Both the position numbers and the translations under genes were made by a program. From Pyxidicoccus sp. MSG2 (GTDB lineage: Bacteria > Myxococcota > Myxococcia > Myxococcales > Myxococcaceae), in contig NZ_JAPNKC010000001.1 in assembly GCF_026626705.1 (NCBI RefSeq), positions 3,224,001-3,288,000 on the forward strand: a stretch of DNA of 64,000 nt, read 5' to 3'. The stretch's first letter is position 1; each line of letters starts with the position of its first letter. Shown piece after piece: positions 48,873-64,000 of this stretch. The notes under the pieces are model-generated. The model saw only the letters and a list, made by a program, of their open reading frames with translations, was not told the origin of the DNA and ran no database searches.

Positions 48873-49355
48873 CTACGGCGCCACCCGCGCGGTGAAGGCC
48901 GCGAGCAACTCACGCCGCTCCGCCTCGTCCGTCACGCTGTCGAGCGCCGGGAAGAAGTACGTCTCCTCCCGCAGCTCGTGGTGATGCGAGAGGTGCTTGA
49001 ACGTGGTCTCCGCGTCCAGCAGCCGCAGCACGGCGCGCTTGAAGCCCGCGGACTCCGGCTCCAGGGCGCGCAGCTCCGCTCGGAAGCGCGCGAGGAACTC
49101 CAGCAGGCGCTGGTGCTCCCCGGTGAAGAGCTCCGGCGAGGCGCCCCGGATGCGGCCGGCCCGCGAGAAGACGGGCAGCAGCAGCGCTTCCTCGGCTTCG
49201 AGGTGCCGGCGCAGCGCCGCCTCGTAGCCGTCGAGCCGCTCCGCCGCCAGAGCCACGTCGGAGTCGAGCAGCGCGTCCTGGTGCTGGAGGAAGCGCTCCT
49301 CCAGCTCACGATGGAGGGAGGCCAGGCTGGCGAAGTCGGAGAACGGCGGAGTCAC
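48873..49355 (-). CDS. Hemerythrin-domain protein
   Basis: 160 residues, GTG start. Four-helix bundle with hemerythrin ligands: His15 (SLHREL), His51 with Glu (RRHLEAEEALLLP), His80 (GEHQRLLEF) and a later SHHHELREETYFFP. This is the HHE/hemerythrin kind that binds a di-iron centre and reacts with O2, NO or iron. It lies 88 bp downstream of the nos operon on the same strand, so a role in NO handling or repair is suggested by context. It is not a full RIC/YtfE protein, because the ScdA N-terminal domain is missing. Confidence 0.85.
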   Translation of the reverse strand: MTPPFSDFASLASLHRELEERFLQHQDALLDSDVALAAERLDGYEAALRRHLEAEEALLLPVFSRAGRIRGASPELFTGEHQRLLEFLARFRAELRALEPESAGFKRAVLRLLDAETTFKHLSHHHELREETYFFPALDSVTDEAERRELLAAFTARVAP

Positions 49356-49443: not shown

Positions 49444-50097
49444 TCACGCCTGGAGGAACAGCAGGGACGCGGACAAGCGGGACGCGCGCAGCCGGCCCAC
49501 GAACAGGTGCCACACCGTGAGGGCGACCACGCCCGTGGCGAAGAGGCCGAGGTACAGGCTGCCCAGGCCCGGGTAGCTCGCCGTCGTGAAGTTGGCGATC
49601 TGCTTCGTCCCCAGCAGCGCGGGCATGAAGGGCTCCACCTTCACGGGGGCCGTCGGCGAGAGGTCATGCCCGAAGACGTAGAGCTTGTACGCGAAGCGCC
49701 CCAGCCCGAAGAGGGACACGTAGGCGGTGAGGACCGTCAGGTCCAGCAGCGAGCGCACGCTGCCGAGCGCCGCCACGCGCAGGGCCAGCAGCGCCAGCGC
49801 GCCCACGGCGAAGGGGAGCCAGTCCAGGTCGGACAGCGCCGCGCGGTCGATGGCGTGCATGCCGATGTAGTGGTTGAGCGTGTTGATTTCCTGGATGTGC
49901 TGCCCGTCCCCGCCCCCCTCCAGCTTGTAGGACCAGATCTGCATGGACAGGCCCTCCGGGTACTGCGGGGCGCTCAGGTCGATTCGCCACAGCGGCGCCG
50001 TGAAGGTGAGCAGCAGGGGGACGACGAGCAGCGCCAGCACCAGGCGGGCCCGGTCGAAGAGGGGCTTGTCGAGGAAGGCATGGAACTTCGGTGTCAT
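49444..50097 (-). CDS. Uncharacterised inner-membrane protein of nos operon
   Basis: 217 residues. ATG 50097 overlaps the nosY stop (ATGA). About five hydrophobic helices. After the first helix is a conserved-looking segment YPEGLSMQIWSYKLEGG and then EINTLNHYIGMHAI, which gives Met/His residues on the periplasmic side. Another His pair is near VFGHDLSP. Such residues could bind copper or haem. Its coupling to nosY suggests a role in copper delivery or electron supply for N2O reductase. I do not recognise a named family with certainty. Confidence 0.75.
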   Translation of the reverse strand: MTPKFHAFLDKPLFDRARLVLALLVVPLLLTFTAPLWRIDLSAPQYPEGLSMQIWSYKLEGGGDGQHIQEINTLNHYIGMHAIDRAALSDLDWLPFAVGALALLALRVAALGSVRSLLDLTVLTAYVSLFGLGRFAYKLYVFGHDLSPTAPVKVEPFMPALLGTKQIANFTTASYPGLGSLYLGLFATGVVALTVWHLFVGRLRASRLSASLLFLQA

Positions 50098-50936
50098 ACG
50101 AGGTCACTCCTCTGGAAACGGCGCAGCGCATGGGCCCAGGCCCCGAGCCCCACCGCCACGGGCCAGAGCGTCCCCACCGCGAAGAGCCCGGCACTCCCCA
50201 GCCGGTTCGCGAGGAAGAAGCCCACGGGGCCGAGCACCGCCAGGTCCGGCGTCACGCCCGACAACAGCGCCATGCGCGCCGCCTGCACCGGGTTGAGGGA
50301 GGCCAGCAGGAACACCGTGCGCGGGTCCAGCCGCCACTGGAGCATCAGCCCCACCAGCCCGAAGTCGATGAGCGCCACACCCAGGGCCCACAGCGTGAGC
50401 AGCCAGATCATCGCCCGCGCCGGGCTACGCACCAGCGTGCTCACGGCGATTCCCAGTCCCACGAAGGCCAGCAGCAGCGCGGCGCTCACCGCCACCGCCC
50501 GCAGCAGGAAGCCCCACGGCACCTCCTGCCCGAAGGCGAGCCAGCCCAGCAGCGCCATGCCCGGCATCAGCACCGCCAGCGGCACCACCAGCGCCGCGTA
50601 GCGCACCGCGCTCACCGCGACGAAGAAAGCCCCCCGGCGCACGGGCAGGCTGAAGAGCAACTCCAGCGTGCCGTCCTCGCGCGCGCGGTTCACCACCTGC
50701 CCCGTCGCGGTGAGCGCCAGCAGCGGCAGCAGCAGCACCAGCGCGTGACAGAAGGACAGCAGCACCCGCCCCATGCCGGAGAAGCCCAGCAGCGAGGACT
50801 CCCGCAGCCCCACCAGCACGAAGGCCCCGGCCAGCAGCGCATACACCGCGCCGCAGAACACCATCCACCGCGAGCGCAGCACCTCCGCCACGTCCAGGCG
50901 CGCCACCGCGGCCACCTCCCGGAGGAGCGACGTCAT
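50094..50936 (-). CDS. nosY: NosY-type ABC permease
   Basis: 280 residues with six transmembrane helices, ABC2-membrane type. Typical segments are LDVAEVLRSRWMVFCGAVYA near the N-terminus and NRAREDGTLELLFSLPVRRG between helices 2 and 3. It works with NosF and NosD to mature the CuZ (4Cu-S) site of N2O reductase in the periplasm. ATG 50936 overlaps the nosL stop, and its own stop overlaps the next gene, so all are coupled. Confidence 0.88.
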   Translation of the reverse strand: MTSLLREVAAVARLDVAEVLRSRWMVFCGAVYALLAGAFVLVGLRESSLLGFSGMGRVLLSFCHALVLLLPLLALTATGQVVNRAREDGTLELLFSLPVRRGAFFVAVSAVRYAALVVPLAVLMPGMALLGWLAFGQEVPWGFLLRAVAVSAALLLAFVGLGIAVSTLVRSPARAMIWLLTLWALGVALIDFGLVGLMLQWRLDPRTVFLLASLNPVQAARMALLSGVTPDLAVLGPVGFFLANRLGSAGLFAVGTLWPVAVGLGAWAHALRRFQRSDLV

Positions 50937-51400
50937 GGCGTGCCCTCCCGCGCGTCCCGCTCACGGCGCAGCCCCGCGAGCACGTCGGCTGGCGCGCGCG
51001 CTCCGGGCACCCCCGCCTCCACCGCGCCCACGCCGTAGCCCATGGGCGTGGGGCCCACCGGCACGAAGGCCACCCCTCCGCCCGGAATCCACCGGTCCTC
51101 GCGCACGTGGTGGAACCACGCCGCGTGGACCCGGGGGTGCTCCTCGGCCTCGTAGCGCAGCAGACAGCCCGGGTCGTCGAAGTGGAGCACCCGCCCGTCC
51201 TGAAGCTGGAGCTGGGCGGCGAAGGCGGGCTCGCCCACGTGCATGCGGCAGTGCGCGCACGCCTCGCGGTCCCACGCCACCGGCGCCGGCCCCTCGGGCA
51301 GCCGCTCCGTCCACGACACCGCGAGCGCAAGCCCGCCCACCATTCCCAACACCACCCCGACACGCGGCAGCCACCGCCAGGGGTGCCTAGTCGCCGCCAT
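50933..51400 (-). CDS. nosL: NosL copper chaperone
   Basis: 155 residues. GGAGGTG precedes ATG 51400, and the gene begins 13 bp inside the end of nosF. An N-terminal helix (RVGVVLGMVGGLALAV) anchors it, without a lipobox unlike many NosL proteins. The copper site motif is Cys48-Ala-His-Cys51-Arg-Met53 (CAHCRMH), and FDDPGCLLRYE is the second family signature. NosL binds Cu(I) and feeds the NosDFY system in CuZ assembly. Confidence 0.9.
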   Translation of the reverse strand: MAATRHPWRWLPRVGVVLGMVGGLALAVSWTERLPEGPAPVAWDREACAHCRMHVGEPAFAAQLQLQDGRVLHFDDPGCLLRYEAEEHPRVHAAWFHHVREDRWIPGGGVAFVPVGPTPMGYGVGAVEAGVPGARAPADVLAGLRRERDAREGTP

Positions 51401-52265
51401 GGGACACCTCCACCGTTTCCACGTCGCTCACGCGCAAGTCACTCATCCCGCGCCCCAGCGCGTGTGCCAGCTCGGGCACCAGCTCCCGCTTCTCCGCCTG
51501 CGACAGCGTGCGCACCCACCAGCCGCGCAGCCCCGCGCGGAAGCCCCGCGCCTGGAGCCAGCCGGCGGCCTCCACCGAGCCGGTGGCCACCTCCACCACC
51601 GCCAGCCCCCGGCCCGCGAGCAAGTCCTCCGCCGGCCCGTCGTACGTGACGCGCCCCTCGTCCAGGGACACCACGTGGCTGGCCAGGTGCCTCAGCTCCT
51701 CCAGCCGGTGCGAGCACAGCACGAGCGTCCTTCTCGAGGCCCGCTCCTCGCACAGCTCGAAGAAGCGCTCGCGCGCCCTCGCGTCGAGGCTGGCCGTGGG
51801 CTCGTCCATCACCAGCAGGCTCGCGTCCGACGCGAGCGCGACGGCGATGAGGAGCTTCTGCTTCATCCCCCCCGACAGCGCGCGGAAGGGCCGGCCCCGC
51901 AGCGCGTCCACGTCCAGCTCCAGCCGCGCGGCGAGCCGGACGATGGCCTCCCGGGCCAGCCCCCGCGTCCGCGCCACCAGGGCCACCACGTCCTCCACCG
52001 GCGCGCCCAGCTGCGGCGCCACCTGCGGCACGTAGGCCAGCCGGCGCGCCACCTCCAGCCGGTCCTCATAGGGTGAGCGCCCGTCGAGCCGCACCTCGCC
52101 CTCGCACTCCACCAGCCCCAGCAGCGAGCGCAGCAGCGTGGACTTCCCGCTGCCGTTGGGGCCGATGAGGGCCACCCACCGCCCGGAGGGCACCGACAGG
52201 TCGATGCCCTTGAGCACCTCCGCGCCACCGAAGCGCTTGCGCACCGCCTTCAGCTCAATCCGCAT
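51387..52265 (-). CDS. nosF: NosF-type ABC ATPase
   Basis: 292 residues, cytoplasmic. Walker A is GPNGSGKST, the signature is LSGGMKQK, Walker B is LLVMDEPTASLD, and the switch His is in LCSHRLEEL. The last ~60 residues form the extra NosF-like tail. ATG 52265 overlaps the end of nosD by 11 bp, and the gene ends 14 bp inside nosL. With NosD and NosY it is the ABC machine for copper-sulphur site assembly. Confidence 0.92.
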   Translation of the reverse strand: MRIELKAVRKRFGGAEVLKGIDLSVPSGRWVALIGPNGSGKSTLLRSLLGLVECEGEVRLDGRSPYEDRLEVARRLAYVPQVAPQLGAPVEDVVALVARTRGLAREAIVRLAARLELDVDALRGRPFRALSGGMKQKLLIAVALASDASLLVMDEPTASLDARARERFFELCEERASRRTLVLCSHRLEELRHLASHVVSLDEGRVTYDGPAEDLLAGRGLAVVEVATGSVEAAGWLQARGFRAGLRGWWVRTLSQAEKRELVPELAHALGRGMSDLRVSDVETVEVSHGGD

Positions 52266-53589
52266 GGCCGGCCTCCAGTGACAGGGGCGCCATGCGCGGC
52301 GCCGCGTCCCGCAGCACCGGCTTCGGCGCGAAGAGGGGCAACAGCTCCCCCGCGGCGCGCACCAGCGACAGCGTGGGCGAACCCCGGAAGAAGGCGAGGT
52401 CCGGGTAGCGGGCCACCAGGTCGCCGGACAGGCTGCGCAGCTCGTAGGGCACGTCCCCCACACCGTCGGCGTCCCAGTCGTAGCCCGCGTAGTCGTCGAA
52501 GTCGTTGCCGCGCCACTCCACCTCCAGCGCGTCCCCGCCGCCCTCCACCTGCACCGGCGCGGCGTTGTCTCGGAAGCTGTTGCCGCGGAAGGCATTGCGC
52601 CGCTCACTGCCGTGGAACACCACGCCCACGTCCCCCAGGCGGAAGTGGTTGCCCTCGAAGACGTTGGCGTCCCCGTCCTGCAGCGGCGACGTGTCCAGGT
52701 ACAGGCCCACCGTGTTGTGCACCAGCAGGTTGCCCACCGCGGTGACGTTGCCACTCTCCTTCAGGCCCAGGCCCATGCCGGCCGCGCCGGTGCCCCCCGC
52801 GAGCACGTTGCGCCGCAGCACGATTCCGCGGCTGTACATGACGAAGATGCCCACCTCGTTGCCGGCGTAGTGGTTGTCCTCCACCATGTTGTCGTGGCTG
52901 TACATGAAGTGGGTGCCGTAGCGCCCGCCGATGACGGTGTTGCGGCGCACGGTGTTGTGGCTGGAGTACCAGACCACCACGTCGCGCCCGGCCTCCACGA
53001 GGTTGTCTTCGACGAGCGAGCGCTGCGTCTCCCACAGCCGGATGGCGTCCCCGCGCATGCCCAGCGCCGGCCCGCCCGAGCCCACCACGTGGTTGCCGCG
53101 CACGGCGACGCCCTCCGTACGCTCCACCAGGATGCCGAACACCGCGTTGCGCACGGTGATGCCCTCCACCCGCGCACCGCGCCCGCGCACGTGCACGGCG
53201 GCGTCCAGCGTGTCGAACCGGCCGCCGCTGCCGTCCACGGTGAGCCCCAGCAGCCGCGCGCCCTCCCCCTCCAGCCGCACCGTGGTGCCCTCGCCGGAGG
53301 AGCGCACCACCGCCTCGCGGGGCCCCCACAGCGTGACGCCCGCAGGCAGGCGCAGCGGGCCCCGGTACGTCCCGGGCGCCAGGCAGAGCGCCTCGCCCGC
53401 GCGCGCGCCCTCCAGCAGGGACTTCACGTCGGCCCCTGCCTCCGCGGGCCGGCAGTCCGGTGGACGCGCGGGCGCGGCGGGGACGGAGCCCTGCCGCGAC
53501 ACCTGCGTGGAAGCGGGCCGCGCGCAGCCGGCGAGGACGAGCCCCGCGGCGAGCACGGCACCGGCGCTGCTGTGGAAGAGGAAGGGCAT
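52255..53589 (-). CDS. nosD: NosD periplasmic copper-site assembly protein
   Basis: 444 residues. The signal ends at Cys22 (LAGC), so this NosD is probably a lipoprotein. The body is a right-handed parallel beta-helix (PbH1/CASH repeats: GDAIRLWETQRSLVEDNLVE, GIFVMYSRGIVLRRNVLAGG, VGLYLDTSPLQDGDANVFEG) ending in NosD features (WRGNDFDDYAGYDWDADGVG, GDVPYELRS). It is needed to build the CuZ centre of NosZ. It lies 71 bp downstream of nosZ and overlaps nosF. Confidence 0.92.
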   Translation of the reverse strand: MPFLFHSSAGAVLAAGLVLAGCARPASTQVSRQGSVPAAPARPPDCRPAEAGADVKSLLEGARAGEALCLAPGTYRGPLRLPAGVTLWGPREAVVRSSGEGTTVRLEGEGARLLGLTVDGSGGRFDTLDAAVHVRGRGARVEGITVRNAVFGILVERTEGVAVRGNHVVGSGGPALGMRGDAIRLWETQRSLVEDNLVEAGRDVVVWYSSHNTVRRNTVIGGRYGTHFMYSHDNMVEDNHYAGNEVGIFVMYSRGIVLRRNVLAGGTGAAGMGLGLKESGNVTAVGNLLVHNTVGLYLDTSPLQDGDANVFEGNHFRLGDVGVVFHGSERRNAFRGNSFRDNAAPVQVEGGGDALEVEWRGNDFDDYAGYDWDADGVGDVPYELRSLSGDLVARYPDLAFFRGSPTLSLVRAAGELLPLFAPKPVLRDAAPRMAPLSLEAGHAD

Positions 53590-53660: not shown

Positions 53661-55634
53661 TCACTTCGGCTCGACGAGGAAGTAGCCCGCCATCTCGAGG
53701 TGCAGCGCCGAGCAGAACTCCGTGCAGTACATGGGGTACACGCCCGGCCTGTCGGCCACGAAGGTGACGTTGGCGTGCTTGCCCGGCTCCAGGCTCAGGT
53801 GGATGTTCTGCGAGCCGATGGTGAAGCCGTGCGTGGCGTCCTTCGCCTGCTCGATGTTCGTGATGTGCAGGTGGACGGTGTCCCCCTCCTTCACGCGGAC
53901 GATGTCCGGCGTGAAGTGGCTGCGCACCGCCGTCATGTAGACGTGGACGCCGTCCTCCCTGCGCTCCACGCGCTCCTTGCCGCCCTCCACCGCGTGGTCG
54001 TCCTTCTGGTGCGTCAGCGCGTTGATGCCCGCGGGCTTGTAGATGTCGAGCGGCTTGATTTTGTCCGCCTTGATCATCTGCGCGTAGTGCGGCTCGCCCA
54101 GCGGGATGGGGCTGTCGTAGAGCAGCTGCATCTTCTGCCCGGTGGTGTCCACGAGCTGGAAGTTCTGCGGCAGCAACGGGCCCACGGGCGCGAAGCGGTC
54201 GATGGCCCACTTGTTCATCGCCACCAGGAACCTCCCGTCCGGAGAGACGGTGTCCCCTTCGGCGGCCGCGAGGTGGCCGATGTTGTAGTGCGTGGGAAGC
54301 TTGTCCACGAGCTTCAGGTCCTTGAGCGACCACTTCGCGACCTTCGACTCGATGAAGACGGACGTGTACGCGTAGCCCTCGTTGTCGAACTGCGTGTGCA
54401 GGGGCCCCAGGCCGATTTCGCACTGGCCGCGGATGGCGTCCTGGAACGGGAGGATGGGCACGCCGTACGGGTCCTTCCCCACCACCGTCGCGGCGGAGAT
54501 GAGGGCCTTTATCTTCTCGATGCTGAAGACGGTGGCGTGCGTGTCCAGCTTGCCGCCGACGATGATGTCCTTCCCGTCCGGCGTGACGTCCACGCCGTGC
54601 GGGCTCTTGGGCTCGGGCACGAAGTGGAGCAGCCCCTCCGCCACCACCGTCTCCAGGGGAATGACGCGCATGCCGGCAATCGTCCGCGTCTTGCCCGCCT
54701 TCACCACCGCCTCCGCCTTCCGCCAGGGAATGACGTGGAGGTAGTCCATGTCGTTCTGCGACACGCCGGACTCCAGCGGCGGGTTGCCCTCCATGTTTCC
54801 GCCGTAGGCGCGCTCGGTGTTGATGGAGTTGATGAAGATGTAGCCATCACTGGCCAGCTTCCCCGCGTCCGCCAGGTCCTGCATGTACGGCGGCAGCTCC
54901 ATGGCCCACGAGTCCTCGGGGACGATGCGGCCCTTCGCGCGGTCGAACTTCCAGAAGATGACCGCGCCCCGGTACTCGTCGTTGAAGCGCTTCACGTCCG
55001 CGTACCGGCCGCCCAGCGGCGTGGGGTACTGGCTCGTCTCGATGACGTAGTCGGTGTCGGGGGTGACGAAGGTGGAGCCGTGCTCGCTCTCGATGAGCTC
55101 GCTGGCGACAATCTGCGTGGTGGCGAAGTCCTTGAGGGACACCACGGCGATGCGCGGGTTGGCCTTGTCGTTGACGAAGATGTACTGGCCGTCGTAGTCG
55201 CCCGCCGACTCGGAGAGCGCCGGGTGGTGCATGTCACCCCAGGTGAGCATCTTCCCGTCGCGGCTGCCCTGCTTCAGCAGCGCGTTCGTCTGGTCGCCGT
55301 AGCCGTAGCCCTGCCACGGCTCGGGCGTGAAGACGCCGATGTACTTGAGGATGCGCATGCTCGGCACCCCCATGACGATGAGGTTGCCGCCGTGTCCGCC
55401 CGAGGCGAACAGGTAGTATTCGTCGTGCTTGCCCGAGGGCGTGTACGTCTTCAGCGCGGCCACCACGTCCGCCTCGGACAGCCCGCGCTTCTCCATCATG
55501 TCCCGCAGCCCGGTGCTGCCCAGGCTCGCGGAGGCCGTCCCCGGCGGGCTCGCGCCGCCGCCGTTGGAGCCGTTGCATGCCAGGGCCAGCAGCGCCGCGG
55601 CTCCGCACCTCCACTTCGCTCTCCAGGTCTTCAT
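53661..55634 (-). CDS. nosZ: Nitrous-oxide reductase, clade II-like
   Basis: 657 residues. It reduces N2O to N2 in the periplasm. GAGGA precedes the ATG. No twin-arginine signal is present. Instead a Sec-like signal with a lipobox at Cys20 (LLALAC) is seen. The N-terminal seven-bladed propeller holds the CuZ ligands (DMHHPALSES, SPHGVDV, GPLHTQFD, HYNIGHL, GEPHYAQ). The C-terminal cupredoxin has the CuA site His602 (DATHGFTIGS), Cys637, Cys641, His645 and Met648 (CTEFCSALHLEM). The lack of Tat and the genes around it match atypical (clade II) NosZ, as in Anaeromyxobacter. The upstream cytochrome c is a likely electron donor. Confidence 0.96.
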   Translation of the reverse strand: MKTWRAKWRCGAAALLALACNGSNGGGASPPGTASASLGSTGLRDMMEKRGLSEADVVAALKTYTPSGKHDEYYLFASGGHGGNLIVMGVPSMRILKYIGVFTPEPWQGYGYGDQTNALLKQGSRDGKMLTWGDMHHPALSESAGDYDGQYIFVNDKANPRIAVVSLKDFATTQIVASELIESEHGSTFVTPDTDYVIETSQYPTPLGGRYADVKRFNDEYRGAVIFWKFDRAKGRIVPEDSWAMELPPYMQDLADAGKLASDGYIFINSINTERAYGGNMEGNPPLESGVSQNDMDYLHVIPWRKAEAVVKAGKTRTIAGMRVIPLETVVAEGLLHFVPEPKSPHGVDVTPDGKDIIVGGKLDTHATVFSIEKIKALISAATVVGKDPYGVPILPFQDAIRGQCEIGLGPLHTQFDNEGYAYTSVFIESKVAKWSLKDLKLVDKLPTHYNIGHLAAAEGDTVSPDGRFLVAMNKWAIDRFAPVGPLLPQNFQLVDTTGQKMQLLYDSPIPLGEPHYAQMIKADKIKPLDIYKPAGINALTHQKDDHAVEGGKERVERREDGVHVYMTAVRSHFTPDIVRVKEGDTVHLHITNIEQAKDATHGFTIGSQNIHLSLEPGKHANVTFVADRPGVYPMYCTEFCSALHLEMAGYFLVEPK

Positions 55635-55668: not shown

Positions 55669-56100
55669 CTACTTCGCCGCGAGCCCCCGGATGTGCTCGC
55701 GCAGCCCGCGCACCACCGGCTTGTCCGCCAGGTCCGGGTTGGGTGGCATGGCGGGACTGCGGCCGACCGCGCCTCCGCCGTACGCGATGATTTTCTCGAT
55801 GTGCTCGTCGCTCACCGCCGCCTGCCAGGCCTTGTCCTGGAAGTTGCGTGGCGGCGGCGTGAGGCCCGCGGACGCGGCCCCGTCTCCCCCGCCCCGGGGC
55901 CCGTGGCACACCGCACAGCGAGAGTTGAAGACCTCCTCCGCCTCCTGGCGGACGGCGGGCGTGAGCGCGGGCGCGGACGCCACGGCCGGCGGTGAGCTCG
56001 GGGACGATGCCCCCTGCTCGTTGCACGCCAGGGCGCCCCATGCGGCACCCGCGGCGACCACCCCGGCCCAACCTCTGCTTCGTGCGGCTTTGCCCCACAT
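55669..56100 (-). CDS. Mono-haem cytochrome c lipoprotein
   Basis: 143 residues. GGGAGG precedes ATG 56100. The lipoprotein signal ends at Cys26 (GALAC). The haem site is CAVCH at 62-66, and the sixth ligand is probably Met in RSPAMPPNPDL. It is a class I small cytochrome c. It is first in the operon, 34 bp upstream of nosZ, so it likely carries electrons from the quinol/bc1 chain to NosZ CuA. The NsrR-like palindrome is 77 bp upstream of its start. Confidence 0.9.
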   Translation of the reverse strand: MWGKAARSRGWAGVVAAGAAWGALACNEQGASSPSSPPAVASAPALTPAVRQEAEEVFNSRCAVCHGPRGGGDGAASAGLTPPPRNFQDKAWQAAVSDEHIEKIIAYGGGAVGRSPAMPPNPDLADKPVVRGLREHIRGLAAK

Positions 56101-56176
56101 CGCGGACCTCCCGTTCCGAGCTGACTCGACGGTGGCCCCTGCTGCGACGGACGTGCCAGGGCGCCTTGCCCCTTGA

Positions 56177-56199
56177 AACAAGTATTCAGAATGCATGTT
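56177..56199. promoter_or_regulatory. NsrR-type operator between nos operon and NO reductase gene
   Basis: AACAAGTATTC-A-GAATGCATGTT is an 11-1-11 imperfect palindrome (9 of 11 pairs match; the flanking A/T extends it to 12). This is the size and form of binding sites for the Rrf2-family NO sensor NsrR, whose enterobacterial consensus has an AAGATGCATTT half. A TTGAAA (56173-56178) with 17-bp spacing to TGTTTT (56196-56201) overlaps it on the plus strand, so repression of the reductase gene is plausible. The spot is AT-rich inside GC-rich DNA. Confidence 0.7.
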
Positions 56200-56347
56200 T
56201 TGCGCGACACCGGGGCACGCGGCGCACGGGCTGCGCGGCCGCGGGAGGCGAGCGTGGGTGCAGGGAACGGCGGCGCGCATGGAACACCGCTTGCTCTGGG
56301 GAGGGCTCGAAGCCGCATCGCCACACCCCTCCTTTGGAGCCGCCGTC

Positions 56348-58654
56348 ATGAAACACAAGAAGCTCTGGGCGCTACTGGGCGCCGTCTTCTTCGCCTCGTT
56401 CTTCGTCCTTGGAAGAGAGGGCGTGCACATCTCCCGGACGCTGCCGCCCATCCCCGGCCGGGTGGTGACACCCGACGGCACCCTGCTCGTCGAGGGCGCG
56501 TCCATCCAGCGCGGCCAGAATGTGTGGCAGTCCATCGGCGGGCAGCAGGTGGGCTCCATCTGGGGGCACGGCGCGTACGTGGCGCCGGACTGGAGCGCGG
56601 ACTGGCTCCACCGCGAGAGCGTCTTCCTCCTCGACACCTGGGCGCGCGCGGAGGGCCTCACCGGCTACGACGCCGCCCCGGCCGAGCGGCAGGCGGCCCT
56701 GCGCGCGCGGCTGCAGGGCGTCATCCGCACCAACACGTATGACGCCGTCACGGACACCGTGACGCTGGACGGCTTGCGCGCCGAGGCGTACCGCGCCAAC
56801 GCCGCGCACTACGCGGACGTCTTCTCCCGGGGGCGGCAGGCCTACGCCATTCCGGAGGGCGCGCTGACGGACGCCGCGAAGCTGAAGGACCTGGGGGCCT
56901 TCTTCTGGTGGACGAGCTGGGTGACGTCCACCAACCGCCCCGGGGAGACGGTGAGCTACACGCAGAACTGGCCCCACGAGCCGCTGGTGGCCAACGTGCC
57001 CACGACGGGCGCGTACCTCTGGACGTACCTCTCGGTGGTGCTGCTGCTCGCGGCGGTGGGCGCGCTCGTCTGGTACGTGAGCCGCAGGCAGGAGGAGGGA
57101 GAGGAGGCGCCGCCCGCGAAGGACCCGTTCTCCGGCATGGTGTTGACGCCGAGCCAGCGCGCCACGGGCAAGTACTTCCTGGTGGTGGTGGCGTTGATGC
57201 TGGTGCAGGTGGCGCTGGGCGGCATCACCGCGCACTTCGGCGTGGAGGGCGAGGGCTTCTACGGCGTGCCGCTGGGGAAATACCTGCCCTATGCGGTGAC
57301 GCGGAGCTGGCACACGCAGCTGGCCATCTTCTGGATTGCCACCGCGTGGCTGGCCACGGGCCTCTTCGTGGGCCCGGCGGTGAGCGGCGTGGAGCCGCGC
57401 TTCCAGCGGCTCGGCGTCAACTTCCTCTTCGTGTGCCTGGTCATCATCGTCGCGGGCGCCATGGTGGGCCAGTGGGCCAGCGTGCAGCAGCGGCTGGGCG
57501 GAGACCTCTGGTTCTGGTTCGGCCACCAGGGCTACGAGTACGTGGACCTGGGCCGCTTCTGGCAGCTCTTCCTCTTCGTGGGCCTCTTCGTCTGGCTGTT
57601 CCTCACCGCGCGCTCCATCTGGCCCGCGCTGAAGCGGCCGTCGGAGAGCCGTCCCCTCATCCTCCTGTTCGTCATCTCCTCGGTGGCCATCGCCGCCTTC
57701 TATGGCGCGGGGCTCATGTACGGGCAGAGGAGCCACCTGGGCATGGTGGAGTACTGGCGCTGGTGGGTGGTGCACCTGTGGGTGGAGGGCTTCTTCGAGG
57801 TGTTCGCCACGGTGGTGATGGCGTTCCTCTTCGTGCGGCTGGGCGTGCTGTCGGCGCGGGTGGCCACGCCAGCGGTGCTCTTCTCCACCATCATCTTCCT
57901 GGCGGGCGGCATCATCGGCACCTTCCATCACCTCTACTTCTCCGGCACGCCGTCCTCGGCGCTGGGGCTGGGGGCCACGTTCAGCGCGCTGGAAATCGTG
58001 CCGCTGGTGCTGGTGGGCCGCGAGGTGTGGAGCCACGTGCGCCTGTCGCGCGCCGGTGGGTGGATGGAGCGCTACCGCTGGCCCATCCTCTTCTTCATCG
58101 CGGTGGCCTTCTGGAACCTGGTGGGCGCGGGCGTGTTCGGCTTCCTCATCAACCCGCCGCTGGCGCTCTACTACATGCAGGGCCTCAACCTGACGCCCGT
58201 GCACGGGCACACCGCGCTCTTCGGTGTGTACGGCATGCTCGGCATCGCCCTGATGCTCTTCACGCTGCGCATGGCGGCGCCGGAGGCCCGGTGGCGCACG
58301 CGCACGCTGGCGTGGAGCTTCTACGCGCTCAACGGCGGACTGGTGTTGATGGTGGTGCTGTCCATGCTGCCCATCGGCATCCTCCAGACACAGGCGGCGA
58401 TTGAGCAGGGCACGTGGTGGGCCCGCAGCGCGGAGTTCCTCCAGACGCCGCTGATGAACACGCTGCGCTGGCTGCGCGCCCCGGGAGACACCGTCTTCGC
58501 GCTCGGGGTCCTCTTCCTGGCCTGGTTCGTGGTGGGGCTGAAGACGGGCTGGTCGCTGGAGCCCGCCACCACGGCGAAGCCCGAGCCGCGCGAAGAAGGC
58601 GCCGGCCCCATGGGCATCGCCGCGCCGGCCCCCGCCGCGCTGCGGCGGCGCTGA
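56348..58654 (+). CDS. norZ: Quinol-dependent nitric-oxide reductase
   Basis: 768 residues, single-subunit qNOR: 2 NO to N2O and water using quinol. N-terminal helix, then a ~200-residue periplasmic domain related to NorC but without a CXXCH haem motif, which marks the quinol type. The NorB/cytochrome-oxidase-like part has about 12 helices with haem and non-haem-iron ligands: SWHTQLAIFW, WWVVHLWVEGFFE (His plus Glu), GTFHHLYFSG and VHGHTALFGVYG. ATG 56348 starts the first helix; the frame upstream overlaps the regulatory site and is not coding. It diverges from cytochrome c/nosZ across 247 bp and converges on hmuV. Confidence 0.95.
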   Translation: MKHKKLWALLGAVFFASFFVLGREGVHISRTLPPIPGRVVTPDGTLLVEGASIQRGQNVWQSIGGQQVGSIWGHGAYVAPDWSADWLHRESVFLLDTWARAEGLTGYDAAPAERQAALRARLQGVIRTNTYDAVTDTVTLDGLRAEAYRANAAHYADVFSRGRQAYAIPEGALTDAAKLKDLGAFFWWTSWVTSTNRPGETVSYTQNWPHEPLVANVPTTGAYLWTYLSVVLLLAAVGALVWYVSRRQEEGEEAPPAKDPFSGMVLTPSQRATGKYFLVVVALMLVQVALGGITAHFGVEGEGFYGVPLGKYLPYAVTRSWHTQLAIFWIATAWLATGLFVGPAVSGVEPRFQRLGVNFLFVCLVIIVAGAMVGQWASVQQRLGGDLWFWFGHQGYEYVDLGRFWQLFLFVGLFVWLFLTARSIWPALKRPSESRPLILLFVISSVAIAAFYGAGLMYGQRSHLGMVEYWRWWVVHLWVEGFFEVFATVVMAFLFVRLGVLSARVATPAVLFSTIIFLAGGIIGTFHHLYFSGTPSSALGLGATFSALEIVPLVLVGREVWSHVRLSRAGGWMERYRWPILFFIAVAFWNLVGAGVFGFLINPPLALYYMQGLNLTPVHGHTALFGVYGMLGIALMLFTLRMAAPEARWRTRTLAWSFYALNGGLVLMVVLSMLPIGILQTQAAIEQGTWWARSAEFLQTPLMNTLRWLRAPGDTVFALGVLFLAWFVVGLKTGWSLEPATTAKPEPREEGAGPMGIAAPAPAALRRR

Positions 58655-58660
58655 GGGCAC

Positions 58661-59464
58661 TCACGGTGGAAGGGACGCCCGTCCCGCCGGGAGCACCCAG
58701 GGTCCCGGCACTCCCGGCCACTCGGCGATGACCACGTCGAGGCCGAAGGTCTCCGCGATGAGGTCCGCGCGGAGCACCTGCGCGGGCGGCCCCTCTTCCA
58801 CCAGGCGACCACCGGCCAGGAGCACCAGTCGGTGCGCGTGGCGCGCGGCGAGGTTCAGGTCATGCAGCACGGCGAGCACCGCACCGCCCTCACGGGCGAA
58901 GCGCCCCGCCGCTTCGAGGACGAGGTGCTGGTGGGCGAGGTCCAGGCTCGCGGTGGGCTCGTCGAGCAGGAGGTAGCGGTGCCCCTGCTCCAGCGGCGCG
59001 GAGAGCTGGGCCAGCACGCGCGCGAGCTGCACCCGCTGCTTCTCTCCACCCGACAGCGTGGGATACGGCCGCGAGACCAGGTGCCGCGTGTCGGTGGCAT
59101 CCAGCGCCGCCAGGGCCGCCTCCACGTCCGCGCCCTCCGAGCCCCGGCGCGCGTGTGGACTGCGCCCGAGGAGCGCCACCTCCAGGGCCGTGAAGCCGAA
59201 GCCCAGGGAGGACTCCTGGGGCAGCACGGCGAGCCGCCGGGCCCGCTCGCGCGGGAGCCAGCGGTTCAGGGGAAGCCCCTCCAGCAGCACCTCCCCGGCC
59301 GCGAGGGGCAGCTCTCCCGCGAACGCCGACAGGAGCGTGGACTTGCCGGCGCCATTGGGCCCGACAACGGCGAGCATCTCTCCGGGCTGGAGCACCAGGT
59401 CGATGGGGCCGAGCGCCCTGCCCCGCCCACGCCACACCTCCACACCGCTCGCGGTGAGACTCAT
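58661..59464 (-). CDS. hmuV: Haem ABC transporter ATP-binding protein
   Basis: 267 residues. Walker A GPNGAGKST at 35-43, signature LSGGEKQR, Walker B YLLLDEPTASLD, switch His in VLHDLNLAARHAH. Matches HmuV/BtuD-type importer ATPases. ATG overlaps the permease stop (ATGA). It powers haem movement from the periplasm into the cytoplasm. It is the last gene of the operon and ends 6 bp from the convergent NO reductase gene. Confidence 0.9.
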   Translation of the reverse strand: MSLTASGVEVWRGRGRALGPIDLVLQPGEMLAVVGPNGAGKSTLLSAFAGELPLAAGEVLLEGLPLNRWLPRERARRLAVLPQESSLGFGFTALEVALLGRSPHARRGSEGADVEAALAALDATDTRHLVSRPYPTLSGGEKQRVQLARVLAQLSAPLEQGHRYLLLDEPTASLDLAHQHLVLEAAGRFAREGGAVLAVLHDLNLAARHAHRLVLLAGGRLVEEGPPAQVLRADLIAETFGLDVVIAEWPGVPGPWVLPAGRASLPP

Positions 59465-60546
59465 GCGGCCCCCTTGCGCGCCAGCAGGCCGATGAAGACG
59501 GGAACGCCCAGCACCGACGTCAGCGCACCGACGGGCAGCTCCGCGGGCGCCGCCGCCGTCCGGGCCAGCAGGTCCGCGGCCACGAGCAGCGCGGCACCGA
59601 GCAGCGCGGAGGCACCGAGCAGGCGCCGATGGTCCGGCCCCATCGCGAGGCGCAGCAGCGCCGGCACCAGCAGCCCCACGAAGCCGATGATGCCCGTGGC
59701 GGACACGGCGGCGCCCACGCCCAGGGCCGCGGCGAGGACGAGCCGGCGCTTGAGCCGCTCCACGTCCACGCCCAGGTGCCAGGCCTCGCGCTCGCCCAGC
59801 AGCAGCAGGTTGAGGGCGCGGGCCTCGCGCAGCAGCAGCGCCAGCGCCACACACAGCGGCACCGCGGCGGCTCCCACCACGTCCCAGGACGCGCCGCCCA
59901 GGCTGCCCCAGCTCCAGAAGGTGATGGAGCGCAGTTGCGCGTCCGTGGCCACCTGGGTGAGCAGGCCGATGCCCGCGCTCGCGCCCGCGCTCACCGCCAC
60001 GCCCGCCAGGAGGATGCGCGCCGTCTCCGTGCGGCCGTCTCCCCGGCCCAGGCGCTGGGCCAGCAGGGTGGCACCCAGCGCGCCCAGGAAGGCCGCGCCC
60101 GGCACGGCCAGCAGGCGCAGCGTGCCGAGCCGCGTGCTCAGGGACACGTCGAGGACGATGGCCGCCACCGCGCCCAGCGCCGCGCCGCTGGAGGTACCGA
60201 GCAGCCCGGGCTCCACCAACGGATTGCGGAACAGCGCCTGGAGCGCGGCGCCGCACGTGGCCAGCACCGCGCCCACCAGGACGGCGAGCACCACCCGAGG
60301 CAGCCGGATGGAGAGCAGCACCGCCTCCTGCGCGGACGAGAGCCCGCTCCCGATGTCCACCCCCAGGGCACCGAGGACGCCACCCACCAGCGCCAGGGGT
60401 GGCACGTGCACCGCGCCCACGGCCAACGAGGCCAGCGCCACACCGACGAGCAACAGCGCCAGGAACATCCAGGGGCTCGGCGGAGACGGCAGCGAGGCGC
60501 GCCCCGGGTACGCGGCGGAGACGGGGGCGACGCCCGAGGCGCTCAT
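59461..60546 (-). CDS. hmuU: Haem ABC transporter permease
   Basis: 361 residues with about ten transmembrane helices, FecCD/BtuC family. Characteristic segments are LSIRLPRVVLAVLVGAVLAT, GAALQALFRNPLVEPGLLGT, FWSWGSLGGASWD and GIIGFVGLLVPALLRLAMGP. ATG 60546 overlaps the stop of hmuT. It forms the channel with HmuV for haem delivered by HmuT. Confidence 0.92.
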   Translation of the reverse strand: MSASGVAPVSAAYPGRASLPSPPSPWMFLALLLVGVALASLAVGAVHVPPLALVGGVLGALGVDIGSGLSSAQEAVLLSIRLPRVVLAVLVGAVLATCGAALQALFRNPLVEPGLLGTSSGAALGAVAAIVLDVSLSTRLGTLRLLAVPGAAFLGALGATLLAQRLGRGDGRTETARILLAGVAVSAGASAGIGLLTQVATDAQLRSITFWSWGSLGGASWDVVGAAAVPLCVALALLLREARALNLLLLGEREAWHLGVDVERLKRRLVLAAALGVGAAVSATGIIGFVGLLVPALLRLAMGPDHRRLLGASALLGAALLVAADLLARTAAAPAELPVGALTSVLGVPVFIGLLARKGAA

Positions 60547-61472
60547 CGCCCGCTCCACGCGGGCAGGCCCAGCCCATCCTGCAGCCGCCCCACCGCCTTG
60601 CCCAACGAGGACCCCACCGCCATGAAGTGGACGTCCTCCACGGTGACGAGCCGCCAGCCCTTCACCTGGGACAGGCCCGGCACGCGCCCAAGGCCCTCCG
60701 CGCCCCCCAGGGCCGTCGCCGAGCTGGCGGGAAGCAGGAGGATGTCGGGTGCGGCCTCGACCACCGCCTCCGCCGTCAGCGGCTTGTGGCCGACGAACCG
60801 GGAGACGGCATTCACGCCGCCCGCGAGGCGGATGAGCACGTCGGACGCCGTCTCCGCGCCGGCCACCATGAGGACGCCTCCGCCCCGCGAATAGAGCGCG
60901 AGGACGCGGAGCGGCTTCCCGTCCTTCCTCGCGGCCACGCGCTGTGAGGCACGCTCGAGGTCCTTCTCCAGCTCCGCGATGAGTGCGGCCCCCCGCGCGC
61001 TCCTGCCGAGCCGCTCGGCCAGGGTCCGGATGCGCTGCCGCGCCGCCTCCACCGTGGGCGCGTTGGGCAGCACCACCACCTCCACGCCAGACTTCTTCAG
61101 TTGCTCCAGCACACCCGGCGGGCCCGCCTCCTCGGACGCCAGCAATCGCGACGCCCCCGTCGCCAGCACCGCCTCCGCGGAGAGGGCGCGCTGGTAGCCC
61201 ACCTTGGGTGTCCGCGCGGCGGCCTCGAGCGCGAGGCTGGTGTCATCCACGCCGACCACCTGCTCTCCGGCGCCCAGGGCGAACACCGTCTCCGTGACGG
61301 CCGGGCCCACCGTCACCAGTCGGGGCTCGGCGCCCGGGCCCTTCACGGGTGCGGCGGATGGCGTCGGAGCCTGGACGGCAGGCGCCTCCGGCGGAGCAGA
61401 GCCGGTCGCGTGAGCACTGGCCGACACCATCAGGGCAGCGAGAAACACGGACATGTTCCGTGCACCGCTCAT
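60543..61472 (-). CDS. hmuT: Haem ABC transporter substrate-binding protein
   Basis: 309 residues. A signal peptide (MSVFLAALMVSASAHA) is followed by a short Pro-rich linker and a TroA/BtuF-type fold: PRLVTVGPAVTETVFALGAG, VVGVDDTSLAL, VGYQRALSAEAVLATGASRL. A Tyr in VGYQRALS is at the haem-ligand place seen in HmuT/ShuT proteins. ATG overlaps the hmuS stop. Periplasmic haem binder for HmuUV. Confidence 0.9.
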   Translation of the reverse strand: MSGARNMSVFLAALMVSASAHATGSAPPEAPAVQAPTPSAAPVKGPGAEPRLVTVGPAVTETVFALGAGEQVVGVDDTSLALEAAARTPKVGYQRALSAEAVLATGASRLLASEEAGPPGVLEQLKKSGVEVVVLPNAPTVEAARQRIRTLAERLGRSARGAALIAELEKDLERASQRVAARKDGKPLRVLALYSRGGGVLMVAGAETASDVLIRLAGGVNAVSRFVGHKPLTAEAVVEAAPDILLLPASSATALGGAEGLGRVPGLSQVKGWRLVTVEDVHFMAVGSSLGKAVGRLQDGLGLPAWSGR

Positions 61473-62569
61473 GGCAGCACCTCCACCAATTCCCGCATCA
61501 GTGCCTGCCACGCGGGCAGCTCGGGGAGCCCCGGCTTCCGCTGCCCGAAGACGAGCGCGATGTTCTCCCCCTCCGCGTCGAACAACTCCAGCGACGTCAC
61601 CACGCCATCGCGCGTGGGCTTGCGCACCACCCAGGCGGAATGGATGTGGTCCGCGCGCACGTGCAGGTTGAAGCCCGGGTCCAACACATTCAGCCACGGC
61701 CCCATCGTGCGCACCGTGCGCACCGGTCCGGTGTGAATCTGGATGCAGCCCGGGTTGCCGACGAAGACCATGATGGGCAACCCCGACGCGGCCACCCTGT
61801 CCAACACCCACGCCAGGGACATGGGAGCCACGGGAGTGGCCAGCTCCCGCCCCACCAATCTCAAGGCCTGCGTCCGCGCCACCTTCAACCGCAAGAGGAG
61901 CGGGAAGAAGTCATGCGTGTCCTGGAGCGCCTTCCAGCCGGCGCGGAGTCCCTCCACGTCCACCTCGCCATCCGGGCGCGGCGTCTCCACCGGCCTGGCC
62001 CGCTCCACGGGAAGGGCCTGGACCTGGTCCACATGGGTCAGCGTCTCCACCAGCGCGTCGAACGCCGCCGCGCCCCCCGCCTCCTCCAGGAAGACCTTGT
62101 GCACGGCCGTTCCCGTCGCATCGAAGAACTGGAGGCTGCGCCGCGGCCCGTCCGCCAGGCTCTCACGCAACGCGAGGCCGAAGCGCCAGCGCGACAGGAA
62201 GAGGCGCAGGTCGATGTCCGCGTCCAGCACCAGGGCCCGGAGCCCGTGCAGCTCCACGTTGCGCCAGGTGCCCCGCTTCTCGTGGACCGCGTACGCGTTG
62301 CGCGTGAGCGACATCACCCGCCCCAGTGACTCCATCCGGGGCAGGAGCACGTCGAAGAGCAGGTCGAGGCGGACGGCGTCCTCGCCAATCCCCGTGGCGA
62401 GGAGCTCCGCCTCGCTCACGCCGAGCACTTCCGCGGCATCACGGGTCCGCGTGCGGGGTTGGGATTGTTTCAGCGCCTGCCAGCGCTGGCGCAGGAGGGC
62501 GGGCCCGGTCGCCGCGCCCGTGACAGAAGGCTGTTGCACCATGAGGGGCACCTCGGTGTCGGTACGCAT
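61469..62569 (-). CDS. hmuS: HmuS/HemS-type haem-handling protein
   Basis: 366 residues of the ChuS/HemS family, two similar halves: LGRVMSLTRNAYAVHEKRGT with LRESLADGPRRSLQFFDATG in the first, and VFVGNPGCIQIHTGPVRTV with FNLHVRADHIHSAWVVRKPT in the second. The His in VRADHIHSAW is near the family's haem ligand. The family stores or degrades haem in the cytoplasm. ATG 62569 touches the stop of hmuY (TGATG). ATG 62542 with GAGGTG 6 bp upstream is a strong alternative start. Confidence 0.9.
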   Translation of the reverse strand: MRTDTEVPLMVQQPSVTGAATGPALLRQRWQALKQSQPRTRTRDAAEVLGVSEAELLATGIGEDAVRLDLLFDVLLPRMESLGRVMSLTRNAYAVHEKRGTWRNVELHGLRALVLDADIDLRLFLSRWRFGLALRESLADGPRRSLQFFDATGTAVHKVFLEEAGGAAAFDALVETLTHVDQVQALPVERARPVETPRPDGEVDVEGLRAGWKALQDTHDFFPLLLRLKVARTQALRLVGRELATPVAPMSLAWVLDRVAASGLPIMVFVGNPGCIQIHTGPVRTVRTMGPWLNVLDPGFNLHVRADHIHSAWVVRKPTRDGVVTSLELFDAEGENIALVFGQRKPGLPELPAWQALMRELVEVLP

Positions 62570-63234
62570 CAGCGGGAGCCAGGAGCCGCGTCGACGTGCC
62601 CACCCGAGACGGGGCCCGACACCTTTGCCCAGTGCAGCTTCAGCATCGCGGGCGTGCCCGCGTCGTCGTAGTAGGAGAGCAGCTCCACCTTGAAGTACGC
62701 GCCCGAGTCCGAGCGCACCACGTAGACGAGCGGCCGCGGACTGAGCTTGTGCGTCGCCGGGTCATAGGCGTACCAGCCGTCCCCCGCCTGGAAGACGGTG
62801 TCCGGGTCCGCGCCCACGTCGTCGCCATCCGCCGCGTCGGTGGTGTAGCCGCTCGATGGCGCCTGGGTCACCTGCGCGAACGTCTTGTCGGCGAGCACCG
62901 CCACCTGCACTCCGCCAGTGCCACTCACGCCGCCGCGCGAGCGGATGCCGAAGCGCTGGAAGGACAAATCCCAGACGGTGTCCTGCGCCGCATCCACCTG
63001 CTTGCCCAGGTCCAGGTCCAGGCCAATCCACGCCTCCTTGCTCGTCGCGTCCACGGTGGTGGTGAACGAGCCGTCACCGTTGTCCTGGTGGCGCACGTGG
63101 GTGCCGTTCTCCGGCAGTTCCTGCTCGTCACCGGGCGTGGGCTCGAGGTCATCACCACACGCAGTCAACAGCCCCGCCAGCAGCAGGCCTGCGGCACGAC
63201 GGGAGACGCGAGAACGCGGGGAGAAGCGGGACAT
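62569..63234 (-). CDS. hmuY: HmuY-family haem-binding lipoprotein
   Basis: 221 residues. GAAGGAG lies just before ATG 63234. The lipoprotein signal ends at LLTAC. The mature part has the HmuY fold signatures: EAWIGLDLDLGKQVDAAQDT, WDLSFQRFGIRSRGGVSGTG and FQAGDGWYAYDPATHKLSPR. HmuY of Porphyromonas takes haem at the surface and hands it to the receptor HmuR, which is the gene upstream here. Its stop is shared with the start of hmuS. Confidence 0.88.
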   Translation of the reverse strand: MSRFSPRSRVSRRAAGLLLAGLLTACGDDLEPTPGDEQELPENGTHVRHQDNGDGSFTTTVDATSKEAWIGLDLDLGKQVDAAQDTVWDLSFQRFGIRSRGGVSGTGGVQVAVLADKTFAQVTQAPSSGYTTDAADGDDVGADPDTVFQAGDGWYAYDPATHKLSPRPLVYVVRSDSGAYFKVELLSYYDDAGTPAMLKLHWAKVSGPVSGGHVDAAPGSR

Positions 63235-63263
63235 GAAGGCTCCTTCAGGTTTGGGTTGGAACA

Positions 63264-64000
63264 TCACAGGCGGGCGGAGAGCCCGGCCTGGAAGGTGCGA
63301 GGGGGAATGGGCAGGTCCGTGGGATTGCCCGCATCCGCGAGGTTGGTGCCCATGACGAAGAGCTGGAGTTGCTCGCGAAGCCTCCAGCCGACACGGGCGT
63401 CCACGGTGACGTAGGGACGGGCGTCGTAGGGCTCCACCACTCCGTCGCCGTTGGCGTCCGGGTAGAAGGGCCGCGGGCCCACGAGCGCGCCGCGCGCCCA
63501 GGCCTCCACGCCCGACTCGCGGTGGCGCCAGGACACCTGCGCCGTGAGCCGGTGACGGGCCTGTCCCTCCAGCGAGAGCCCGGTGGACTCGGAGCGGCCG
63601 TCGGTGAGGGTGTAGGCCAGCTCGGCGCTGATGCGCCCCGGGAGGCCCTGGCGCACGCCCAGCTCGCCGCCGCGCAGCGTGGCCCGCGCCACGTTGACGT
63701 AGGTGAAGAGCGACTGCTCGCCCCCCTCCTGGAGCGAGACGCCAATCATGTCCCGCAGCGTGTGGTGGAAGGCGCCCACCCAGAGCAGCGACGTGCTGGC
63801 GGGCCGCAGCTCCCCAGACAGCGTCACGCTGCGCGAGCGCTCCGGCCGGAGGTCCGGGTTGCCTCGCACGGCGTAGCCGACGGAGGGGTTCTCGAAGTCG
63901 AGCAGCAGCTCCTGGAAGCCCGGAGCGCGGTAGCCAAAGCCGTAGCCGCCACGCAGCGTGAGCCAGGACAGCGGGTCCACGCGCAGCGCCAGCCGGGGCG
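63264..64000 (-). CDS. hmuR: TonB-dependent haem receptor, C-terminal part (partial)
   Basis: The last ~245 codons of an outer-membrane receptor that continues past the right edge. Beta-barrel strands and the haem receptor boxes are visible: YRAP (GYGFGYRAPGFQELLLDFEN) and NPDL (RGNPDLRPERSRS). No His lies between these boxes, although a His there is the haem ligand in Yersinia HemR-type receptors. The last residues TFQAGLSARL end in the typical hydrophobic strand. It is upstream of hmuY by 29 bp in the same direction, so HmuR/HmuY work as a pair. Confidence 0.88.
   Translation of the reverse strand, partial: PRLALRVDPLSWLTLRGGYGFGYRAPGFQELLLDFENPSVGYAVRGNPDLRPERSRSVTLSGELRPASTSLLWVGAFHHTLRDMIGVSLQEGGEQSLFTYVNVARATLRGGELGVRQGLPGRISAELAYTLTDGRSESTGLSLEGQARHRLTAQVSWRHRESGVEAWARGALVGPRPFYPDANGDGVVEPYDARPYVTVDARVGWRLREQLQLFVMGTNLADAGNPTDLPIPPRTFQAGLSARL

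Follow-up and report, generated by a model that had tools for sequence, protein, structure and literature searches.

The window analysed here, a stretch of 64,000 nucleotides (71% GC) from the 13.3 Mb genome of a Myxococcus-type soil bacterium of the Myxococcus/Pyxidicoccus group, holds genes for the reduction of nitric oxide (NO) and of nitrous oxide (N2O), facing away from each other across a divergent gap of 247 bp (56101-56347). Rightward from this gap, with its ATG at 56348, lies the gene for a single-chain NorB or quinol-type nitric oxide reductase (qNOR; 56348-58654, plus strand), which matches the NorB cytochrome c-like (PF22085, 218 bits) and COX1 (PF00115, 190 bits) domains. Leftward, with its first codon at 56100, runs the nos operon on the minus strand, encoding a small c-type cytochrome (55669-56100; PF13442/PF00034), a clade II, Sec-dependent nitrous oxide reductase, NosZ (53661-55634; TIGR04246, 838.5 bits against a cut-off of 625), a NosD-like periplasmic protein (52255-53589; the reading frame after nosZ, named by sequence and position with no family test), a NosF-like ABC ATPase (51387-52265; a reading frame with a Walker A motif, named by position), a NosL-like lipoprotein (50933-51400; no Pfam match, named by position and a CAHCRM motif), a NosY-like ABC permease (50094-50936; PF12679, 58 bits), a 217-aa membrane protein (49444-50097; a reading frame with no Pfam match) and, as the operon's probable last gene, a hemerythrin-domain protein (48873-49355; PF01814, 39.7 bits). 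An earlier sequence-only reading of this DNA had named both reductases as given here, and it had the size of the gap right. The closest named relatives of nosZ belong to Pyxidicoccus caerfyrddinensis, Myxococcus sp. RHSTA-1-4 and P. fallax. Directly downstream of qNOR, itself a haem enzyme, a haem-uptake-like cluster (58661-63980; ABC transporter, HemS-like protein and TonB receptor, named from sequence) is present, and such a cluster also adjoins qNOR in the relative G064 (L261).

Within the gap, at 56177-56199, lies the 23-bp, 11-1-11 palindrome AACAAGTATTC-A-GAATGCATGTT, which starts 77 bp away from the nos operon's first codon (the cytochrome c ATG, 56100), as first described; nine of its eleven arm pairs match. 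It is composed of A or T at 16 of 23 positions, a count that does not exceed 11 in any other window palindrome of 11-1-11 form having nine or more matched pairs (31 in all), and it falls inside the window's lowest-GC, most AT-rich 29-mer (eight G/C, at 56173); an exact-pattern search allowing up to three mismatches finds it once in the whole genome. The sequence-only reading took it for a site of the NO-sensing repressor NsrR. Its agreement with the published NsrR consensus, gATGyAT-N5-ATrCATc (Rodionov et al., 2005; PMC1274295), extends to 11 of 14 positions, and a position weight matrix built from 33 distinct sites before nsrR operons of relatives, and no others, ranks it first in the window at 23.9 bits, the next position reaching 9.4 and about 0.02 sites of such a score being expected per random genome of 13.3 Mb. 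This matrix was applied to the window and to selected genomic stretches, genome-wide coverage coming from pattern searches. With a loose NsrR pattern, the two strongest sites of the whole genome are the one in the window and one directly before an operon encoding a truncated globin, a ferredoxin reductase and an NsrR-like protein. A third match, at 7733182 (two mismatches), scores -2.4 bits with the matrix, lies by a secreted-protein gene and is attributed to chance. As a predicted NsrR-type operator, conserved in relatives, the palindrome is well supported by sequence.

The search for further copies of the motif, which had been put forward as a check, extends from the host's own nsrR operon to its relatives. 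The pattern, with up to two mismatches allowed, has one to five occurrences in each of 27 genomes of the genus, where a reversed control pattern has none. Operators precede the nsrR operon in other genera too; that operon's operator comes after a TTGAC box, conserved in 18 of 19 aligned genomes, and ahead of the start codon. In genus g3, two NsrR-type palindromes 25 bp apart precede globin-reductase-nsrR (L231-L236). The palindrome occupies the qNOR/nos gap in all five nos-bearing genomes of the genus (the host and its relatives G054, G068, G057 and G079) and precedes qNOR in 12 of 12 close orthologues from two genera. In G064 and in six genomes of another genus, which combine qNOR with NsrR, a palindrome, weak in some, precedes qNOR in seven of seven; nosZ was not found in these genomes. 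The qNOR palindromes of genus g3 (3.9 to 27 bits) are weaker than the nsrR-operon ones. In G079 a 402-codon membrane-protein gene splits the module and each half has an operator of its own, the one at qNOR, AAGATGCATTTTTAATGCATCTT, being a perfect consensus and the second preceding nos. The intervening 402-aa multi-TM protein (L094:3568-4776; no Pfam match) shares its NsrR site with qNOR and is a candidate NO-related membrane protein. In G068 a site of perfect consensus, found blind, precedes a NirK-cytochrome gene, named from its sequence and from a family search with that sequence. No palindrome at up to four mismatches was found at 12 nos loci of NsrR-less family members, and no convincing NsrR site at 77 distant nosZ loci outside the genus, where three matches with three mismatches all fall inside nosZ. 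Two further sets of matches were set aside: four extra ones in G057, at unrelated genes or within coding frames, and a palindrome before a photolyase-like gene in four genomes, which is a different, weaker motif. The latter, the palindrome-like ACATGTrTTyCgTATACATGT, is conserved before that gene (L015:1500, L101:2557, L104:2362, L100:2560).

The promoters call for a revision of the initial picture, in which the palindrome covered a -35/-10 pair facing the NO reductase gene, as a consensus scan of the 247-bp gap turns up no promoter of the sigma70 type and the conserved elements are of the sigma54 type. Before nos, TGGCACGTCCGTCGCA (56143-56158, minus strand) is the window's best match to a -24/-12 promoter, with one of 12 specified bases off (0.4 matches expected in the window at one mismatch), and is kept in G054, G068, G057 and G079; before qNOR, TGGAACACCGCTTGCT (56280-56295, plus strand) is conserved in orthologues, TGGAAC-N5-TTGCT being invariant in 12 of 12. 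All five nos species retain both elements, the sequence conforms to TGGCAC-N5-TTGC with GG and GC 10 bp apart, and RpoN is encoded in the genome (217.9 bits), so that the nos and qNOR promoters look sigma54-dependent. Downstream of the palindrome, the -12 element comes after about 105 bp on the qNOR side and after about 43 bp on the nos side, and with these distances and promoter types a bound repressor would be likelier to mask an activator site than to block RNA polymerase. Classic NsrR repression, by which the protein would obstruct sigma70 RNA polymerase at an overlapping -35/-10 promoter, as at its own operon, with the sigma54-like sequences coincidental, is in our view unlikely. It could draw on the nsrR operon, where the palindrome follows the conserved TTGAC box at the distance of a -10 element, and on a TTGAAA just before the window site; but this TTGAAA is not kept in G054, G068 or G057, and the empty sigma70 scan, the conservation of two sigma54 elements in all species, one of them the window's best match, and a spacing between promoter and site that is kept in whole helical turns, as described below, all speak against it.

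The palindrome's right arm continues into a TTTGCG tail, and together they form an enhancer-like dyad, here UAS1 (TGCATGTTTTGCG; 56192-56204, plus strand), which reads TGCA-N5-TGCG in a 12-genome alignment and is a putative sigma54-activator site. A second dyad, UAS2 (CGCACGGGCTGCG; 56223-56235, plus strand), follows 31 bp away, and no other such pair, with a spacing of 25-36 bp, occurs in the 64 kb window. YGCA-N5-TGCG occurs at the UAS1 offset in 12 of 12 qNOR palindromes versus none of 40 nsrR-operon palindromes, and a second copy, on either strand, lies 29-31 bp away before 12 of 12 qNOR orthologues, counts taken over orthologous promoters that are not independent of one another. At 17 promoters the -12 element lies about 53, 64, 74 or 85 bp from the proximal dyad, distances that change by approximately whole helical turns; among the 34 dyads examined, one (G079 nos) is one base off consensus. 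In the window the pair is in register with both promoters, at 53.5/84.5 bp for nos and 64.5/95.5 bp for qNOR. The dyad statistics are partly post hoc, because the motif was first noticed by inspecting the alignment, while the nos-side phasing and the loci lacking NsrR formed no part of its definition. Similar dyad pairs, without the palindrome, precede nos or qNOR in some NsrR-less relatives. In G001, which has neither NsrR nor NorR, CGCA-N5-TGCG pairs 31 bp apart occur at L267:390/421 and 6560/6591, one before qNOR and one before a region, near qNOR, with a response-regulator gene of the enhancer-binding type. The right arm common to palindrome and dyad, the fixed distances to the promoters and the pairs before nos or qNOR of NsrR-less genomes would also suit a second alternative, that the whole palindrome is the sigma54 activator's own site, its resemblance to the NsrR motif convergent and NsrR uninvolved. 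We hold this to be improbable, as the left arm is conserved too, which the dyad does not explain, NsrR-less genomes have dyads without the palindrome, and the G079 qNOR and G068 nirK sites agree with the consensus of nsrR operons.

The presumptive ligand of the palindrome is encoded 3 Mb from the gap (genome positions 6327243-6327686), as the third and last gene of the operon for the truncated globin and the 2Fe-2S ferredoxin reductase. It is one of three Rrf2 proteins above cut-off in the host genome, another being of the SUF-regulator type and the remaining one having no clear assignment, and it matches PF02082 at 125 bits. Asp8, Arg12, Cys91, Cys99 and Cys105 are all present, and this pattern is kept in 48 of 48 family loci read. 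An Rrf2 protein with three Cys is what the sequence-only reading proposed to look for, and with its presence the genome does not lack the NsrR gene whose absence would have told against that reading. The best solved relative of the protein is Streptomyces coelicolor NsrR (74.6 bits, against 47.5 for the best non-NsrR chain), the [4Fe-4S] cluster of which is ligated by Asp8 and three Cys (PMC5411485) and the DNA binding of which is established to be lost in an NO-dependent manner (PMC9338935). The host protein has the corresponding residues and is predicted to carry a [4Fe-4S] cluster; an operator precedes its operon, which links it to a globin of the NO-detoxifying kind. It scores 117.9 bits with the curated NsrR model NF008240, below the cut-off of 182, and 125.6 bits with the curated RirA model, below the cut-off of 193; as both cut-offs are missed, the name NsrR rests on motif, ligands and gene order. 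That the site instead serves another kind of Rrf2 regulation, iron- or Fe-S-responsive and RirA- or RisR-like, so that the module would answer iron or Fe-S status rather than NO, is very doubtful, for although the RirA model scores slightly above the NsrR model and the haem-uptake-like cluster adjoins qNOR, the globin-reductase gene order is that of the Legionella NsrR target glbN-lpg2536 (PMC1274295), Asp8 is a cluster ligand in NsrR (PMC5411485), the DNA motif is the published NsrR consensus at 11 of 14 positions (PMC1274295), M. xanthus RisR uses GAC-N7-GTC (PMC9973013), and the host's second Rrf2 protein is of the SUF-regulator type.

The interpretation that we favour, and consider probable, is that the palindrome joins an NsrR operator with the enhancer of two divergent sigma54 promoters, an enhancer that NsrR masks until NO appears. 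A sigma54 activator (bacterial enhancer-binding protein) would bind the two YGCA-N5-TGCG dyads 31 bp apart and, since both dyads are on one face of the helix as seen from either promoter, could from there reach the -24/-12 elements of both nos and qNOR. Without NO, [4Fe-4S] NsrR would occupy the palindrome and mask the upstream dyad; NO would destroy its cluster, NsrR would leave, the activator could bind, and NO reductase and N2O reductase would then be induced together. Of the original proposal, that one Rrf2 repressor governs both halves of the module, the single regulator is supported by an NsrR-like gene, the motif at its own operon, a conserved site between nor and nos and a site for each half in G079, whereas occlusion of a -35/-10 promoter is not supported. 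Whether NsrR would act more specifically as an NO-released anti-activator of sigma54, so that the divergent operons need both NO and a second signal to the activator, as in an AND gate, is a refinement to which we give even chances.

Two kinds of activator were considered for the dyads. NorR appears not to fit, there being no GAF-domain match at E <= 1e-8 in the host or in the 12 genomes with a palindrome before qNOR, and it was not found at a convincing score in any NsrR-bearing genome of the family. NorR and NsrR seem mutually exclusive there, the genomes with a strong NorR (G032-34, G036-39, G047 and G048) being without NsrR. In NsrR-less Myxococcaceae (L258:1182-2207, L256:4872-5903, L249, L252 and L253) a sigma54 activator of about 345 aa adjoins clade II nos; a short Cys motif (CxxPFExGGxLCxxCR...C) marks its N-terminus, no sensor domain is recognised in it, and it is possibly a metal- or Fe-S-based sensor. 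This Cys-rich protein was likewise set aside, with no close orthologue in the host genome and no match to its helix-turn-helix signature in the qNOR-bearing genomes tested. In distant Myxococcota metagenome-assembled genomes (MAGs) and in one labelled Singulisphaera (Planctomycetes), an activator of the NorR type, with a GAF domain, precedes the clade II nos operon (L186:3720-5279, L169:3779-5353, L178 and L160; 659-674 bits with the NCBIfam NorR model in the two tested).

Elements of this arrangement have precedents. In Neisseria and Photobacterium profundum, norB, nirK and nos are known or predicted targets of NsrR, and these beta- and gammaproteobacterial regulons (nirK/norB/nos in Neisseria, norVW/nos in P. 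profundum) have in common with the present locus a palindrome of the NsrR type at genes for NO and N2O reductases and, by analogy, an NO-responsive Rrf2 regulator (Rodionov et al., 2005; PMC1274295). There, however, the regulator is assigned a role of plain repression (PMC1274295), whereas here, in a myxobacterium, the nos genes are of clade II and one site, common to divergent sigma54-type promoters, overlaps an enhancer-like dyad. Legionella pneumophila glbN-lpg2536, the sole predicted NsrR target in that organism (PMC1274295), similarly pairs a truncated globin with a ferredoxin reductase behind an NsrR site; here nsrR is added as third gene of the operon and, in some species, qNOR, nos and nirK as further predicted targets. 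The NorR/sigma54 control of norVW and norB offers the parallel of a sigma54 promoter with upstream enhancer sites for an NO reductase, but NorR (GAF-AAA-HTH) was not found in the host genome, the dyad here is YGCA-N5-TGCG and not GT-N7-AC, and the predicted NsrR operator overlaps the enhancer. In the literature searched we found no report of an NsrR regulon in Myxococcota. Apparently new are such a regulon, the inclusion of a clade II nos operon among its predicted targets, and the proposed union of an NsrR operator with a sigma54 enhancer that two divergent operons share.

The greenhouse gas N2O has a major sink in the nitrous oxide reductases of clade II, and the literature searched says little on how these are switched on. 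The present locus offers a directly testable control circuit for one clade II nos operon in myxobacteria and suggests a route by which an NO-sensing repressor may govern sigma54 promoters, through enhancer masking. As neighbouring lineages place NorR or the Cys-rich sigma54 activator beside the nos operon, clade II nos operons may widely be under sigma54 control; in the organism studied here, the steps that remove NO and N2O could both switch on together when NO appears.
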